DNA from: a virus
Direction: 5' to 3' (one strand)
DNA length: 59,150 nucleotides
Virus record (IMG/VR): IMGVR_UViG_3300041409_000237
Coordinates: 1 to 59,150 of that record
Both the position numbers and the translations under genes were made by a program. Of the stretch, positions 6,636 through 58,162 are shown piece by piece. Each line of letters begins with the position of its first letter. Positions within the stretch are counted from its first letter, which is position 1. The notes beneath the pieces are model-generated. The model searched no databases, was not told the origin of the DNA, and worked only from the letters and a program-made list of their open reading frames with translations.

Positions 6636-6849
6636 GGTGGAGGCTGACGCGATCACACGAGGGCAAGCACTTGCTTGCATCACGGAAAGAGCGGCCATCG
6701 CGAACGGGGCTGCGCTGAAATACTACCGGGAGGAAGGCCGAAAGGCTTGGCACGACTGCGCAGCAGCGGTGCTCGCGGAAGTTCGACGGGCTTCTGAAGA
6801 AGAGCTTTCAGCTCTTGGGCTCGCCAAAGCCACGGGAGGAACGCCATGA
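6628..6849 (+). CDS. Hypothetical protein (73 aa)
   Basis: A 73-residue helical protein (MSAVEADAITRGQALACITE) with a strong GGGAGG ribosome-binding site and ATGA overlaps on both sides. No recognised family. Confidence 0.6.
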   Translation: MSAVEADAITRGQALACITERAAIANGAALKYYREEGRKAWHDCAAAVLAEVRRASEEELSALGLAKATGGTP

Positions 6850-6853
6850 GCGC
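6834..6853 (+). repeat. 20-bp direct repeat, copy 2
   Basis: Second exact copy of GGGAGGAACGCCATGAGCGC (first at 6616-6635), covering the start of the HNH fusion gene. Confidence 0.8.
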
Positions 6854-7448
6854 CATCCCCCATACCTTCACCGACGTAACCGACGCGCAAATCTCAGAGC
6901 TTGAAGGGCTGCTTGAGACGCGGCGCGGTCGGGTCGCCGCAACCCCGGAGGCCATCGTGACCACTGCTCACAAGGGCCTCCTAGAAGGCCTGACGTATGA
7001 CGCGTCAACCGGAGAGTTCCGGTGCCGCACCGCTGTCGGACCTCTACGCGCTGGAGCGGTTGCCGGGAGCACTAATGCCAATGGCTATCGATACATCACT
7101 ATAGGTGGCCGGAAATATTTAGCGCATCGGCTCGCGTGGCTTCATGAAAACGGCGCATGGCCCCCGAACGACATCGACCACGTCAATGGGAATAGGGCCG
7201 ACAACCGCATCGCAAATCTGCGGCTGGCAAGTAGAAGCCAGAACAACGCCAACCGCAGAACTAACCGCAACAGCCAGTCGGGCTTGAAGGGTGCTGTATT
7301 CCACAAGCGTCTCCAGAAATGGTGCGCGCGCATAATGATCGACCGCAAGGATGTCTTTCTTGGTCATTTCCCCACGCCTGAAGCCGCGCACGAAGCTTAC
7401 CGCGTCGCCGCCATAGCTGCGTTCGGTGAATTTGCGAGGAGCAACTGA
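6846..7448 (+). CDS. HNH endonuclease with AP2-type domain, N-terminal fusion
   Basis: A 200-residue protein. Residues 1-45 (MSAIPHTFTDVTDAQISELE) are unlike HNH proteins and resemble the starts of its neighbours. From about residue 46 it is a complete HNH_3-type homing endonuclease: AHRLAWLHENGAWPPNDIDH then NGNRADNRIANLRLAS. An AP2-like DNA-binding domain follows, ending FGEFARSN. The join suggests insertion of a homing endonuclease into, or replacement of, a small phage gene. Confidence 0.85.
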   Translation: MSAIPHTFTDVTDAQISELEGLLETRRGRVAATPEAIVTTAHKGLLEGLTYDASTGEFRCRTAVGPLRAGAVAGSTNANGYRYITIGGRKYLAHRLAWLHENGAWPPNDIDHVNGNRADNRIANLRLASRSQNNANRRTNRNSQSGLKGAVFHKRLQKWCARIMIDRKDVFLGHFPTPEAAHEAYRVAAIAAFGEFARSN

Positions 7449-9743: not shown

Positions 9744-10142
9744 ATGGCCGCCCCGCTTCCTCCCCGCCGCAAGCTGACCAAGCTTCAGCGGGTCCGCATC
9801 TTCGACGGCAACGGCGGCAAGTGCCACCTGTGCGGGCTTCCCATCGACGGCACCCGAGAGGGATGGGAAGCCGATCATGTCGAAGCCCGATGGAAAGGCG
9901 GGACCGATGCCATCGGCAACTACCGGCCCGCGCACATCGCCTGCCATGACGTGAAGTCGGCGGCTGAGACGACAGTGCGCGCGAAGGCCGATGCCGTTCG
10001 GGCAAAGCACATCGGGGTGCGCACGGCCCCTGCGCGCCCAATCCAATCGGCGGGCTTCCCCAAGAGCGTTAAGGCGCAAAAGCGGGCCGCCGCGACCCTC
10101 AGCAAGCTCCCCTTACCGGCTGCAAGGAGCCTATTCGGATGA
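9744..10142 (+). CDS. HNH endonuclease
   Basis: A 132-residue HNH nuclease with zinc-binding CHLCG, the catalytic block EADHVEARWKGG and the trailing NYRPAHIACHDVKS (H-N-H order). It is a compact, McrA-like form without the AP2 domain of the other HNH genes in this genome. It directly follows DUF1367 with no gap, so it is more likely a resident recombination nuclease than a homing element. Confidence 0.85.
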   Translation: MAAPLPPRRKLTKLQRVRIFDGNGGKCHLCGLPIDGTREGWEADHVEARWKGGTDAIGNYRPAHIACHDVKSAAETTVRAKADAVRAKHIGVRTAPARPIQSAGFPKSVKAQKRAAATLSKLPLPAARSLFG

Positions 10143-12356: not shown

Positions 12357-12774
12357 GGCGGAGCGCGAGATCGTCGGCGCGCCGCTTGTTCCGCTCACGA
12401 TGGAACAGGTGGCCGCGCGGCTGTCCAAGTCGCGTAGGTGGGTCCAGAGCTTCCTTGCGACCCTCGACAACGGCGGCAAGCGGTATTGGAGCCAAGCCGG
12501 CGCAAAGAAGCTTTTCAGCGAGGCGCAGTTCGCAGCACTATACGCTGCCCTGCCGAACGAGGCCCCGTCATGCCCATCAGGCTCATCCCCCCGCGCAAAG
12601 GTGCGTCGCCGTTCTATCGTGGTCGGGGAACCTACCTCGGCCGGTACGTTGACCGAACTACGAAAGCTAGCTCGGCGGCGCTCGCCCGGAAGGTCATCGA
12701 CCGCTGGAAACGAGAAATCGAACGTGGTGAGTTTCGAGAAAAGGGCGCGCCAACCTTCGTCCGCGCCGCAGTGA
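12349..12774 (+). CDS. Excisionase-like HTH protein overlapping the integrase
   Basis: A 141-residue protein with a MerR/excisionase-type helix-turn-helix: MEQVAARLSKSRRWVQSFLA followed by a YWSQAGAKKLF wing. The C-terminal part is Ser/Arg-rich (SSPRAKVRRRSIVV). That tail recurs in homologous phage proteins I recall, so the 205-base overlap with the integrase gene is probably real dual coding. Expected role: directional control of excision. Confidence 0.7.
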   Translation: MGRAEREIVGAPLVPLTMEQVAARLSKSRRWVQSFLATLDNGGKRYWSQAGAKKLFSEAQFAALYAALPNEAPSCPSGSSPRAKVRRRSIVVGEPTSAGTLTELRKLARRRSPGRSSTAGNEKSNVVSFEKRARQPSSAPQ

Positions 12775-32945: not shown

Positions 32946-33437
32946 ATGCTCACGCGAGAGCGAGTTATAGAAATTTTGGACTACGACCCTGAGACAGGGA
33001 TCTTTCGATGGAAGATGCCAGTTTCGCGTCGGGTCCGCATTGGAGAGCGCGCTGGGTCGCGCAACCAAAAAGGTTATCGACAAATCAGGATCAACCGTCG
33101 CTTCTATGTCGCCCACCGTTTGGCGTGGCTTGTGGTCCATGGGAAGTGGCCGGTCCATCAGTTGGACCACATCAATCGTCAGACCGACGACAATCGCATA
33201 GCAAATCTCAGAGAGGCCACCCAAACTCAGAATAAGGCGAATAGCAGGATCTACAAAAACAATAGCTCAGGCTACAAGGGTGTCGCTTGGAACAAGACCG
33301 TAGGCAAATGGGCTGCTTACATCAGAAGCGGCGGCGCTCGTACCCACTTAGGCTATTTTGCATCGCCGGAAGAGGCGCATCGTGCTTACTCCGCCGCCGC
33401 ACCAGCCGTGTTTGGAGAGTTTGCTACAGATCGCTAA
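32946..33437 (+). CDS. HNH homing endonuclease with AP2-type domain
   Basis: A 163-residue protein: ILDYDPETGIFRWK header, AHRLAWLVVHGKWPVHQLDH and DNRIANLREATQTQNKANSR (HNH_3), then an AP2-like domain SSGYKGVAWNKTVGKWAAYI. Free-standing on the plus strand between two minus-strand ejection genes, its stop overlapping the end of the next gene. Confidence 0.9.
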   Translation: MLTRERVIEILDYDPETGIFRWKMPVSRRVRIGERAGSRNQKGYRQIRINRRFYVAHRLAWLVVHGKWPVHQLDHINRQTDDNRIANLREATQTQNKANSRIYKNNSSGYKGVAWNKTVGKWAAYIRSGGARTHLGYFASPEEAHRAYSAAAPAVFGEFATDR

Positions 33438-42856: not shown

Positions 42857-43930
42857 TTAGGCGATGTGCTTCCAGGTTTTGCCTCGTTGGACAGCGGACA
42901 GGCAGTTCTCTGTCACACCGAACATCGCGGCTAACTCTCGGAGCTTCAGGTGCCGATTGGCTCTGGCAAACCTGACCTGCTCCTCGTTAAGGCCAATCCG
43001 TCGATTTCCTGTCTGCTCAGCGGCTGTGGCCCATCGGCAGTTTTCAGGGCTGTAGTCACCGTTCACGTCAATCCGGTCTAGGCTATAGCCCTTCGGCGGG
43101 TCGCCCATGTCGGCGTAGAAGTTCTCGAAGCTGTTCCAGCGCTCGCAGACCTTGATGCCCCGACCGCCGTAGTGGTGGAAGTTGCTCGTGTTCGGGTTAT
43201 TGCAGCGCGTTTTCATCGCGTGCCATGTGCCGTAGACCCGAGACCGTTTGCTCTTTTGATTTTGCCCATGAACGGTTTTTGATACCGCAATGCGCAATCC
43301 CCTTTCGCAGCCGCATGATCGCAATCTGCCCTGTGCGAAGAAGGCTCCCACCATTTCTTTTTCAGTTCCACAGTCACATCGGACGAGCCATTTACGGCGC
43401 CCGCCTGCGAAGGGCATCTCGTGTACCGCAACCAAGCTCCCAAACCGGCGGCCGGTAAGGTCAACCGCCCTTCGGCCGCTCTTTCCAGCGGGATCATCTT
43501 TGGTGGCCCACATGCAGTTACCGGGCTCATAGTCCCGATCCTTGTCGATCCTCCCGAGGACATGTTGGTCAGATGGAGGCTCACCAACGTCGGCAAGGAA
43601 GGCATCGAACGAATGCCATCGCTCAAACAACTTGATGCCTCGCCCGCCGAACCTCGGATAATGAGGCTGCTTAGGATCGTGACAGCGCTTCTTTACGCTC
43701 TCCCACGTCCGGTACGCCTTGGTCTTAGCGCCGCGAGATGCGTAGCCATGCTTGGTGTGGCGACAGCCGCACGAGACGGTGTTTAGAAGGGCTGTAGAGG
43801 GCAGAAATACCGTTTGGCCGCAGTCACACTGACAAAGCCAGTTTCGACGCCCCTTGGCATCACTTCCGATGTCCTTAAGAGCAACAAGCGAGCCGTGGCG
43901 GAATCCAGTAAAGTTCCTCGGCGCATTCAT
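42857..43930 (-). CDS. Tandem-duplicated HNH-like endonuclease (357 aa)
   Basis: Two successive units of the same endonuclease. Unit 1 has [39 protein letters not shown]; unit 2 has [39 protein letters not shown]. Each unit is preceded by a CDCG/CGC zinc-type module. The C-terminus ([20 protein letters not shown]) is a helix-turn-helix. It sits just downstream of the intron-split capsid gene, on the same strand. MNAPRNF is taken as start. Confidence 0.8.
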
Positions 43931-44004
43931 GGGAGGCTCTGGGTTGGTGTTGGCAATTACGAGTGTAACCGCCAACACCGTTTTTGCAAGAGCTACGTCA
44001 CCGA

Positions 44005-45782
44005 TTAGGTGGACGCAGTTAGCCCATAGACATCGGCCACGACGGCGTGCGCGGCCTCATTCGTTACCATTAGACACCACTCGCAGAGCATGACCTTGGC
44101 GGTCGCGTCTGCGTTGGTGGTCACGTCCTTGTCTTCCTGAATCGGGCGAAGGAAGCCCTTCTTGACCTTGTCCGGGTCGATCAGGAACACGGACGAGGCG
44201 ACCGTGGCTGAGGTGCGGGCCATCTGGCGGTTCGGAACGAAGCTCATCAGTCCGAAGTCGGAGAGATAAGCGTCAGCCGCGCCGAGGATGGTCGCCTGCT
44301 CGTTGCTCGACGCCGTCATGTGCAGGTTCGCCACGTTGGCGTCCGACATGAAGGTCGAGAACACACGCTTGTTCCAGGGCGATCCCATGATGATCTTGGG
44401 ATTGCCGCCAGAGGCGTAAGCGAGCGAAATGCCCTCATCGAGGAGCGTCTTCGTGAACGCACGGAGCGTTCCAGCAGTCGCAGCGTCTACGACGCCCGTG
44501 CCGCTGTTGAAGCCGCCAGACGCACCGCCAGCGCCGAAGCTGTCGTTGGTCTTGAGCCACGCGCGCATACCAGCGCTCTGTCGCGTCGCGCCACCGATGG
44601 AGGCGTTGTTCGACAGCATCGAAGCCTCGATGTCGTGACGGAGCGCGATACCCGCGCGCTGACGTTCACGACCGAGTTCCGACTGAGGCCCGGCCTTGGA
44701 CACAGCTTCCTGCGTCCGAGACACGACGAACGACTCACGCGAGATCTGCGTGTAGTTGCCAACGCGCACGGTCGGCGTGATGGCGTTGTAGGTGTAGACG
44801 TCACCTTCCAACTGCTTGTTGGTCAGCACGGGAACGCGGATGGAGTCATTGCTCCACTCTGGCTTCGTGCCTTCAACGGTCTCCTTCTCCAACATGGAGT
44901 AGAAGGGGGTCTCTTCCAATTGTGTTATCGCGCGGCTCTTTATCCACGCTTCTCACGGTTTCCGCGTGAGTTCAGACTATATCATCTACCGTCGCCATGC
45001 TATGTTTCGCCAATGTGGTCAGCGAAGCACAACCTACCTGCCTGTCAGGCCTGCGGAACGACAGTCACCCCTCACCGAGCCCACGGGCTTTGCCGAAACT
45101 GCTACGCCAAATCGAAGGGGTTCGTTTGGCAGAAGCAGCATCAACAAAAGCACCGCGCGAAGATCACGACCTACGCCCGAGAATGGGCGCGGGCTAATCC
45201 CGCCAGCGTCGCCAAGACACGGCGCAAATACATTGAGAGCGATGCTCAACGCGCCCGCGATCAGGCGCGTAAGCACCTGAGAACGTGGCGAGTGAAGAAC
45301 CGCGCTCCATTCTGCATCGTGTGTGGTGAAGATCGGGTGGCCGAATGGGCTCACCTAGTTCCGCATTGCGATGGCGGACCAGTTGCACCGTGGAACTTGG
45401 TGCCGCTGTGTCCTACTCACCACCGCTGTTTTGACCTCGGGTTAATGACCGAGGATGAGAGGCAGATTGTAGAACCCTACTTGGCCGAAGCTAAGGAGAG
45501 GATGGTACGGTAGTCGGGCGCTCGTGGGCGGATTATTCTTTCGTCACCGCCTAGTCGTTGAACCTTCCGCATCCCTGGGCCTTGCGGCTTACGTATGCGG
45601 CTTGGCTGCTGATTACCCTCGACTTCACGTTAGGGCTTCCCAGCAATTCACCCGATGTTCGATCACCGTTGCCGGTGAAAGGCCCTAGAAACTCAAGGCG
45701 TAATGCGGTCGATGATGTTGGAAAACGTCTCCCGATTGCGAGTGGAGTTCGCAACGGTAAACGTGTTGGTCAAAACTGCCAT
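44005..45782 (-). CDS. Major capsid protein, split by a group I intron (join 45782-45696, 44916-44005)
   Basis: Exon 1 (45696-45782) encodes [20 protein letters not shown] to DRITP (29 residues) and runs straight into a stop codon in the intron. Exon 2 (44005-44916) continues [20 protein letters not shown]. Joined, they give 332 residues with the typical opening of SU10/DUF5309-type major capsid proteins, in which ITPEETPF is continuous. It follows the scaffold gene. Without splicing no full-length capsid can be made. Confidence 0.9.
44917..45695 (-). ncRNA. Group I self-splicing intron in the capsid gene
   Basis: A 779-nt intron on the minus strand. The 5' splice site follows the U of CCT|TGAG, paired as U-G in P1 with TAGGGC; the 3' site is after the terminal G of AATTG|GAAGAG. 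P10 can form between GAAG and TTTC. Core elements in order: P AATTGCTGGGAA (45637-45648), Q AATCAGCAGCCAAGC (45600-45614), R GTTCAACGACTAGG (45550-45563), S GATATAGTCTGAAC (44970-44983). R and S are complementary as GTTCA..GACTA / TAGTC..TGAAC, forming P7. Confidence 0.9.
45013..45513 (+). CDS. Intron-encoded HNH endonuclease, antisense to the capsid gene
   Basis: A 166-residue protein: zinc knuckle [20 protein letters not shown], a basic helical linker, then HNH module [20 protein letters not shown] and [14 protein letters not shown]. It lies within the intron loop between R and S, on the strand opposite the capsid gene, so it needs its own promoter. Presumed homing endonuclease that spreads the intron to intronless capsid genes. 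Confidence 0.85.
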   Translation: MWSAKHNLPACQACGTTVTPHRAHGLCRNCYAKSKGFVWQKQHQQKHRAKITTYAREWARANPASVAKTRRKYIESDAQRARDQARKHLRTWRVKNRAPFCIVCGEDRVAEWAHLVPHCDGGPVAPWNLVPLCPTHHRCFDLGLMTEDERQIVEPYLAEAKERMVR

Positions 45783-57434: not shown

Positions 57435-57680
57435 TCATGAAGTGGGCTCTGTGGTTTTGAGAGACCGGATTGCCTTAGCCATGAAGGTGTACGCCTCCGC
57501 TTCCCGAGCCGCCTCTTCCAGCGCGGCGTTGCGGGCGTCAGTCTCGGCAGCGCGGATGGCGGTGGCCGCCTGTGCCACGCACTTACGGCACGCCTCGCTC
57601 TCGGCCGCGAAGTTCTCTCCTATGATGTGCCGAGCCATCCAGTTTGCCAGCAGGCCTGCTCGTTCTTCCGCAGTAAGCAT
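57435..57680 (-). CDS. Hypothetical helical protein (81 aa)
   Basis: MLTAEERAGLLANWMARHII with ACRKCVAQAATAI and a long Ala/Glu helix. The start is in TGATG overlap with the HNH stop, which suggests the HNH gene was inserted cleanly between coupled genes or coupled afterwards. Confidence 0.6.
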   Translation of the reverse strand: MLTAEERAGLLANWMARHIIGENFAAESEACRKCVAQAATAIRAAETDARNAALEEAAREAEAYTFMAKAIRSLKTTEPTS

Positions 57681-58162
57681 CAACGCTCTCCATCCGATGC
57701 GAACTCACCGGAGCGCTCATGCGCCGCGACGACATAAGCAGCGTGGGCTCCCTCGGGAGTGTCAAAGTATCCGAGGCTCTTCATCCTTCCGTTCAAGCTG
57801 ATGCGAGCTTCGAAACGTCCGCTAGGCCTCGCAGACACGCCTTTTTGGTGTTTCTGGTCTCGGCGTTTTCTCGCGTTCGCCATATTCTGGGCGTGAGTAG
57901 CGAGACGAAGATTGGCGATGCGATTGTCTCCCGGATCGCCGTTCATGTGGTCTAGCCTCATCTCGGGCCAAGTGCCGTAGACGTACAGCCACGCAAGCCG
58001 GTGGGCGTAGTAGTTCTTGCCGCCGGTACGGATCACAACGTACCCCTCTCGATTTGTACCAGCGACCGAACCGGCAACGTGCTTTTGGCGCTGAATGCGC
58101 CAGCGAAACACGCCCGTAAGGGCATCATATTCCAGCAGTTCCCGCAGCCGTTCCGGTGTCAT
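57680..58162 (-). CDS. HNH homing endonuclease with AP2-type domain
   Basis: A 160-residue protein: LLEYDALTGVFRWRIQ header, AHRLAWLYVYGTWPEMRLDH, DNRIANLRLATHAQNMANAR, then QKGVSARPSGRFEARISLNG (AP2-like). It belongs to the same family as the genes at 6846 and 32946. Lies in the replication operon in the same direction. Confidence 0.9.
   Translation of the reverse strand: MTPERLRELLEYDALTGVFRWRIQRQKHVAGSVAGTNREGYVVIRTGGKNYYAHRLAWLYVYGTWPEMRLDHMNGDPGDNRIANLRLATHAQNMANARKRRDQKHQKGVSARPSGRFEARISLNGRMKSLGYFDTPEGAHAAYVVAAHERSGEFASDGER

Follow-up and report, generated by a model that had tools for sequence, protein, structure and literature searches.

It is already known that the major capsid gene of a phage can be interrupted by a group I intron whose endonuclease gene is encoded antisense to the capsid: in gene 13 of mycobacteriophage LittleE (JF937101) the intron carries a bottom-strand endonuclease gene, and its splicing was proved by RT-PCR and N-terminal protein sequencing (PMC3706429). 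In myxomycetes, the nuclear L2066 introns have endonuclease genes in sense or in antisense, the antisense one being both expressed and active (PMC9548176). Given LittleE and L2066, neither the location in a capsid gene nor the antisense orientation is therefore new. Phage C72C1 (OQ984150) also has a group I intron in an SU10-type capsid gene (81.8 bits), at an insertion site that differs from the one described here, and no endonuclease gene is annotated or identified in it. The C72C1 intron itself (L002, OQ984150.1:2779-3019) is unannotated, and the capsid is entered as two head-protein genes separated by small hypothetical genes in antisense. For an HNH gene in the P8 loop of an intron within an SU10-type capsid gene, no description was found in the open-access literature and the few subscription papers covered.

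The locus considered here lies in a 59,150-base virus record (IMGVR_UViG_3300041409_000237), the whole of which was analysed and is referred to as the window. As in LittleE, a group I intron lies in its major capsid gene and an endonuclease gene runs antisense within that intron. The locus is a bona fide new case of a mobile-element type that was already known. The sequence-only reading called this arrangement uncommon, which is fair, yet an antisense endonuclease in the intron of a phage major capsid gene had already been published for LittleE. Unlike the window, LittleE represents a different capsid and a different phage group; the RF00028 match of its intron scores 30.7 against 59.7 for the window, and its endonuclease gene lies just 3' of the RF00028-matched stretch, whereas that of the window is placed in P8. 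The LittleE enzyme (gene 14, L169:1065-1598) is LAGLIDADG_3 by Pfam, while the window's is HNH_2, and the two proteins show no meaningful similarity. The record of LittleE gene 14 says HNH endonuclease, while the text of the paper agrees with LAGLIDADG (PMC3706429). In harbouring sense and antisense endonuclease genes at a single insertion site, the capsid site of the window and its relatives resembles that of the L2066 introns, although the latter reside in eukaryotic rDNA, belong to group IE and encode His-Cys endonucleases.

The capsid gene is read from the minus strand and consists of exon 1 (45696..45782; 29 codons, ending in ACGCCU), the intron (44917..45695; 779 nt, the first base being U and the last the terminal G at 44917) and exon 2 (44005..44916; 303 codons and a stop). 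An in-frame stop TGA stands right at the start of the intron, so that an unspliced mRNA would give a 29-residue peptide, and in silico removal of 45695-44917 fuses CCU with GAA and yields a product of 332 amino acids, with coordinates and lengths the same as those first proposed. The DUF5309/SU10-type nature of the capsid, also proposed from the sequence, is well founded, as the spliced product matches PF17236 (SU10_MCP) over residues 5-325 with E=1.5e-74, relatives align with it end to end, and the gene is syntenic with portal and adaptor genes. The best phage relative, from Rhizobium phage RHph_I1_23 (53%), aligns over residues 1-332 uninterrupted; the capsids of intronless relatives are likewise continuous across the junction, which falls inside the conserved motif ITPEETP.

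In the Pfam search, portal (PF23899, SU10_portal), terminase and adaptor (PF24175, SU10_adaptor) genes were found around the capsid gene on the same strand, and in the genomes of relatives the portal gene is likewise upstream of the capsid gene. An integrase and an S24-type repressor-like gene in the window suggest a temperate phage. The phage would be alphaproteobacterial judging by the relatives of its capsid and portal in Rhizobium and Sulfitobacter phages, which are the sole basis for this label. Directly downstream of the capsid gene, on the minus strand, there is a free-standing two-domain HNH endonuclease gene (42857..43978; phrog_374), and in Sulfitobacter phages phiGT1 and pCB2047-A an HNH gene adjoins the capsid gene at the same place. 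Counting this one, the window has at least five further HNH genes (42857-43978, 6846-7448, 9744-10142, 32946-33437 and 57680-58162), of which 32946-33437, on the plus strand, is antisense within the late region.

The sequence-only reading had proposed a covariance search of the minus strand, and this search was positive: RF00028 (group I intron) matched 45704-44952 with 59.7 bits (gathering cut-off 50 bits; E=1.1e-12 for the whole window), which is the sole group I match in the window. All structural elements are on the minus strand. In P1 (45682..45699), exon bases GCCU (45699-45696) and intron base U45695 pair with the guide GGGC (45685-45682) and A45686, with the wobble U45696.G45685 at the 5' splice site. 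P2 (45663..45678) is formed by UCACCG and CGGUGA, and is followed by a stretch (45514..45656) with the P3-P6 core, the 5' strand of P7 (R element, 45563-45552) and a P7.1-like hairpin. The two strands of P8, CUACCGU (45507..45513) and ACGGUAG (44986..44992), enclose the endonuclease gene; then come the S element GAUAUAGUC (44975..44983) and the P9 hairpin CUCACG...CGUGAG (44952..44970). P7 arises from pairing of GACUA in R (45556-45552) with UAGUC in S (44979-44975). The P3-P8 core with an R/S P7, the exon U opposite a guide G at the 5' site and the terminal G at the 3' site are those of a group I intron. Thus the U-G pairing, the terminal G and the P7 anticipated from the sequence all hold, while for P10 inspection of the sequence gives only a possible pairing of 3 bp (GAA/UUC).

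Once the endonuclease gene is removed, the remaining 265-nt core has a better fold than all but one of 200 shuffles. In an alignment of the window intron with 11 introns from other contigs, P7 is invariant in all 12 introns, and compensatory changes are present in P3, P6 and P8. The covariation score of 0.323 exceeds those of all slid versions and was reached by none of 500 shuffles; low counts in P5, P7.1 and P9 carry little weight, because the alignment is poorer there.

Scans of IMG/VR viral contigs with a single capsid or HNH protein sequence gave no matches, and an alignment-based IMG/VR capsid scan revealed two loci (L011, L025) in which the match starts exactly at residue 30, both with an RF00028 match; among the closest capsid loci screened, these two were the only ones with introns at the window's site. 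A pattern that combined the S element with the 3' exon yielded 64 viral stretches, and in 46 loci including the window (45 others) exon 1, intron and exon 2 are readable with the insertion at the identical base; these loci represent 37 distinct introns, again with the window included (36 others). A pattern scan of the genome collection gave 15 matches, none of which, judged by score, lies in a capsid gene. As the terminal G was built into the pattern, its presence in these introns is no independent evidence. For the last exon codon the pattern demanded proline but not CCT specifically, and CCT is present in 46/46 intron-bearing loci versus 5/68 distinct intronless relatives, a contrast in which kinship is ignored. 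The introns share the GGGC guide and conserved R and S elements, and their scattered occurrence at one site among relatives is what marks a homing intron.

Most of the same-site introns are 250-274 nt long and have no ORF. Two larger ones carry a sense HNH gene, of 259 codons in the 902-nt intron of L095 (same contig as L025) and of 263 codons in the 954-nt intron of L112; both genes start before P3 and run through P4-P7. In these two (L025:545-1324 and L112) the conserved core would be ribozyme and protein-coding sequence at once. The 529-nt intron of L011/L092 retains only an HNH remnant, and an antisense gene is present in the window's intron only among the 37 distinct introns. Between the L095 sense HNH and the HNH protein of the window there is no meaningful similarity, and the ribozyme cores of the other introns compared are at most 63% identical to that of the window.

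The antisense HNH gene of the window (45013..45513, plus strand) encodes 166 amino acids, with a Cys-rich N-terminus, a helical middle part (predicted with low confidence) and an HNH_2 domain at residues 101-145. The length of the ORF was rejected as proof of a gene, as GC-rich random sequence often gives equally long frames; the gene is instead taken as real on the domain match, 29.9 bits for PF13391, where the cut-off is 21. The protein also matches several PHROG HNH families, phrog_589 among them, and in codon-position GC the ORF resembles the window's further HNH genes. The gene stays within the P8 loop, with a stop codon that overlaps the 5' strand of P8 (45513-45507) and an ATG about 20 nt from the 3' strand (44992-44986), so the insertion spares the catalytic core. 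Phages, plasmids and viral contigs were searched for HNH homologues, and similarity never went beyond the domain level; comparison with the PDB returned weak matches only, and AlphaFold without an alignment gave no usable fold (pLDDT 57). A sigma-70-like promoter for the gene was searched for and not found (best relaxed upstream match 8/12), and no clear Shine-Dalgarno sequence was found before the ATG, so that expression independent of the capsid transcript is inference only. The antisense HNH gene claimed in the sequence-only reading itself stands.

Taken together, we are highly confident that a mobile group I intron is inserted after codon 29 of the SU10-type capsid gene of a presumably temperate tailed phage, that it splices, and that the antisense HNH gene in P8 most likely starts, or once started, its homing. 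Capsid pre-mRNA would fold into the ribozyme, as the computed fold and splice sites indicate, guanosine would attack at the U.G pair (CCU|UGAG), and the freed exon 1 would then attack after the terminal G, by which the exons would be joined into the mRNA of the 332-residue capsid. Only transcription of the opposite strand should allow the HNH gene to be read, and its product most likely nicks or cuts, or did so in the past, intronless capsid alleles, with homing of the intron as the consequence. This explanation is backed by the RF00028 match, the spliced SU10_MCP product, the uninterrupted relatives, the introns at the same junction and the CCT contrast, as well as by the covariation, the HNH_2 domain, the confinement of the ORF to the P8 loop and the scattered distribution of introns; in LittleE, moreover, the same design splices in vivo (PMC3706429). 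Counted against it are the HNH promoter and ribosome-binding site that were not found, the lack of a close HNH homologue, the uninformative AlphaFold model and the low identity of the cores.

Among other explanations, the one that survives best agrees that the intron splices and regards the antisense HNH as a silent passenger or relic reversed into the P8 loop, with mobility, if any, supplied by another nuclease such as the 42857-43978 HNH. The promoter and Shine-Dalgarno results favour it, as do the same-site 529-nt intron with its HNH remnant and the HNH gene that adjoins the capsid gene here, in phiGT1 and in pCB2047-A; however, the 166-codon frame is intact, the match to the HNH domain is complete and the codon-position GC is like that of the window's other HNH genes, and we hold this explanation to be rather doubtful, though a serious competitor. 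It is very improbable that antisense transcription of the HNH gene is regulatory, e.g., by pairing with P8 and the core and so restraining splicing and capsid output: the geometry would allow it, a plus-strand HNH transcript being complementary to the P8 loop, but no promoter was found for the gene, and the same-site introns without an ORF manage without an antisense gene. An insertion that merely disrupts the gene and does not splice, or that arose in assembly, with the capsid made otherwise, can be practically dismissed: although the window is a single virus record, independent contigs hold 36 other distinct introns at the identical base, both the Rfam score and the covariation speak against it, the exact in-frame junction restores ITPEETP, and no second intact capsid gene was seen by eye among the listed ORFs of the window.

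Returning to the mobile intron with its homing endonuclease, the site occupied in the window is one of several in these genes. In six loci (L093, L094, L100, L106, L124 and L145) an intron occupies a second insertion site, DVI|YNISP, which lies roughly four codons further upstream, and other introns in capsid genes lie near residues 56, 112 and 248. Capsid genes with two introns occur in L145, L121, L135, L108, L098, L101, L137 and L140, and L111 (149-1944) and L130 (5737-7534) each have four capsid exons and three RF00028 introns. On the same viral contig as the two-intron capsid gene of L098, a glutamine riboswitch aptamer was matched at 12501-12549 (58.5 bits). A single clade of all same-site introns was considered and is unsupported, as second-site introns fall among them in a core tree of low resolution, and this intermixing suggests that the capsid site may have been invaded repeatedly. 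On balance, we incline to the view that the codons of the SU10-type N-terminal arm are a homing hotspot, where several ribozyme lineages with independent HNH captures, in opposite orientations and in different loops, have inserted, the antisense P8 HNH of the window being one such capture and some genes having up to three introns.

Few late genes of a phage are expressed as strongly as the capsid gene, and a ribozyme placed in it must therefore splice very efficiently. More interesting than the window's intron alone is the hotspot, where endonuclease genes differ in orientation. Introns without an ORF, with a sense HNH and with an antisense HNH at one base form a natural comparison of how endonuclease genes enter ribozymes, and the same set bears on the effect that sense or antisense placement in a strongly transcribed gene has on endonuclease expression. 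It is also a warning for annotation, as some SU10-type capsid genes, e.g., that of C72C1, appear truncated or split through unrecognised introns.
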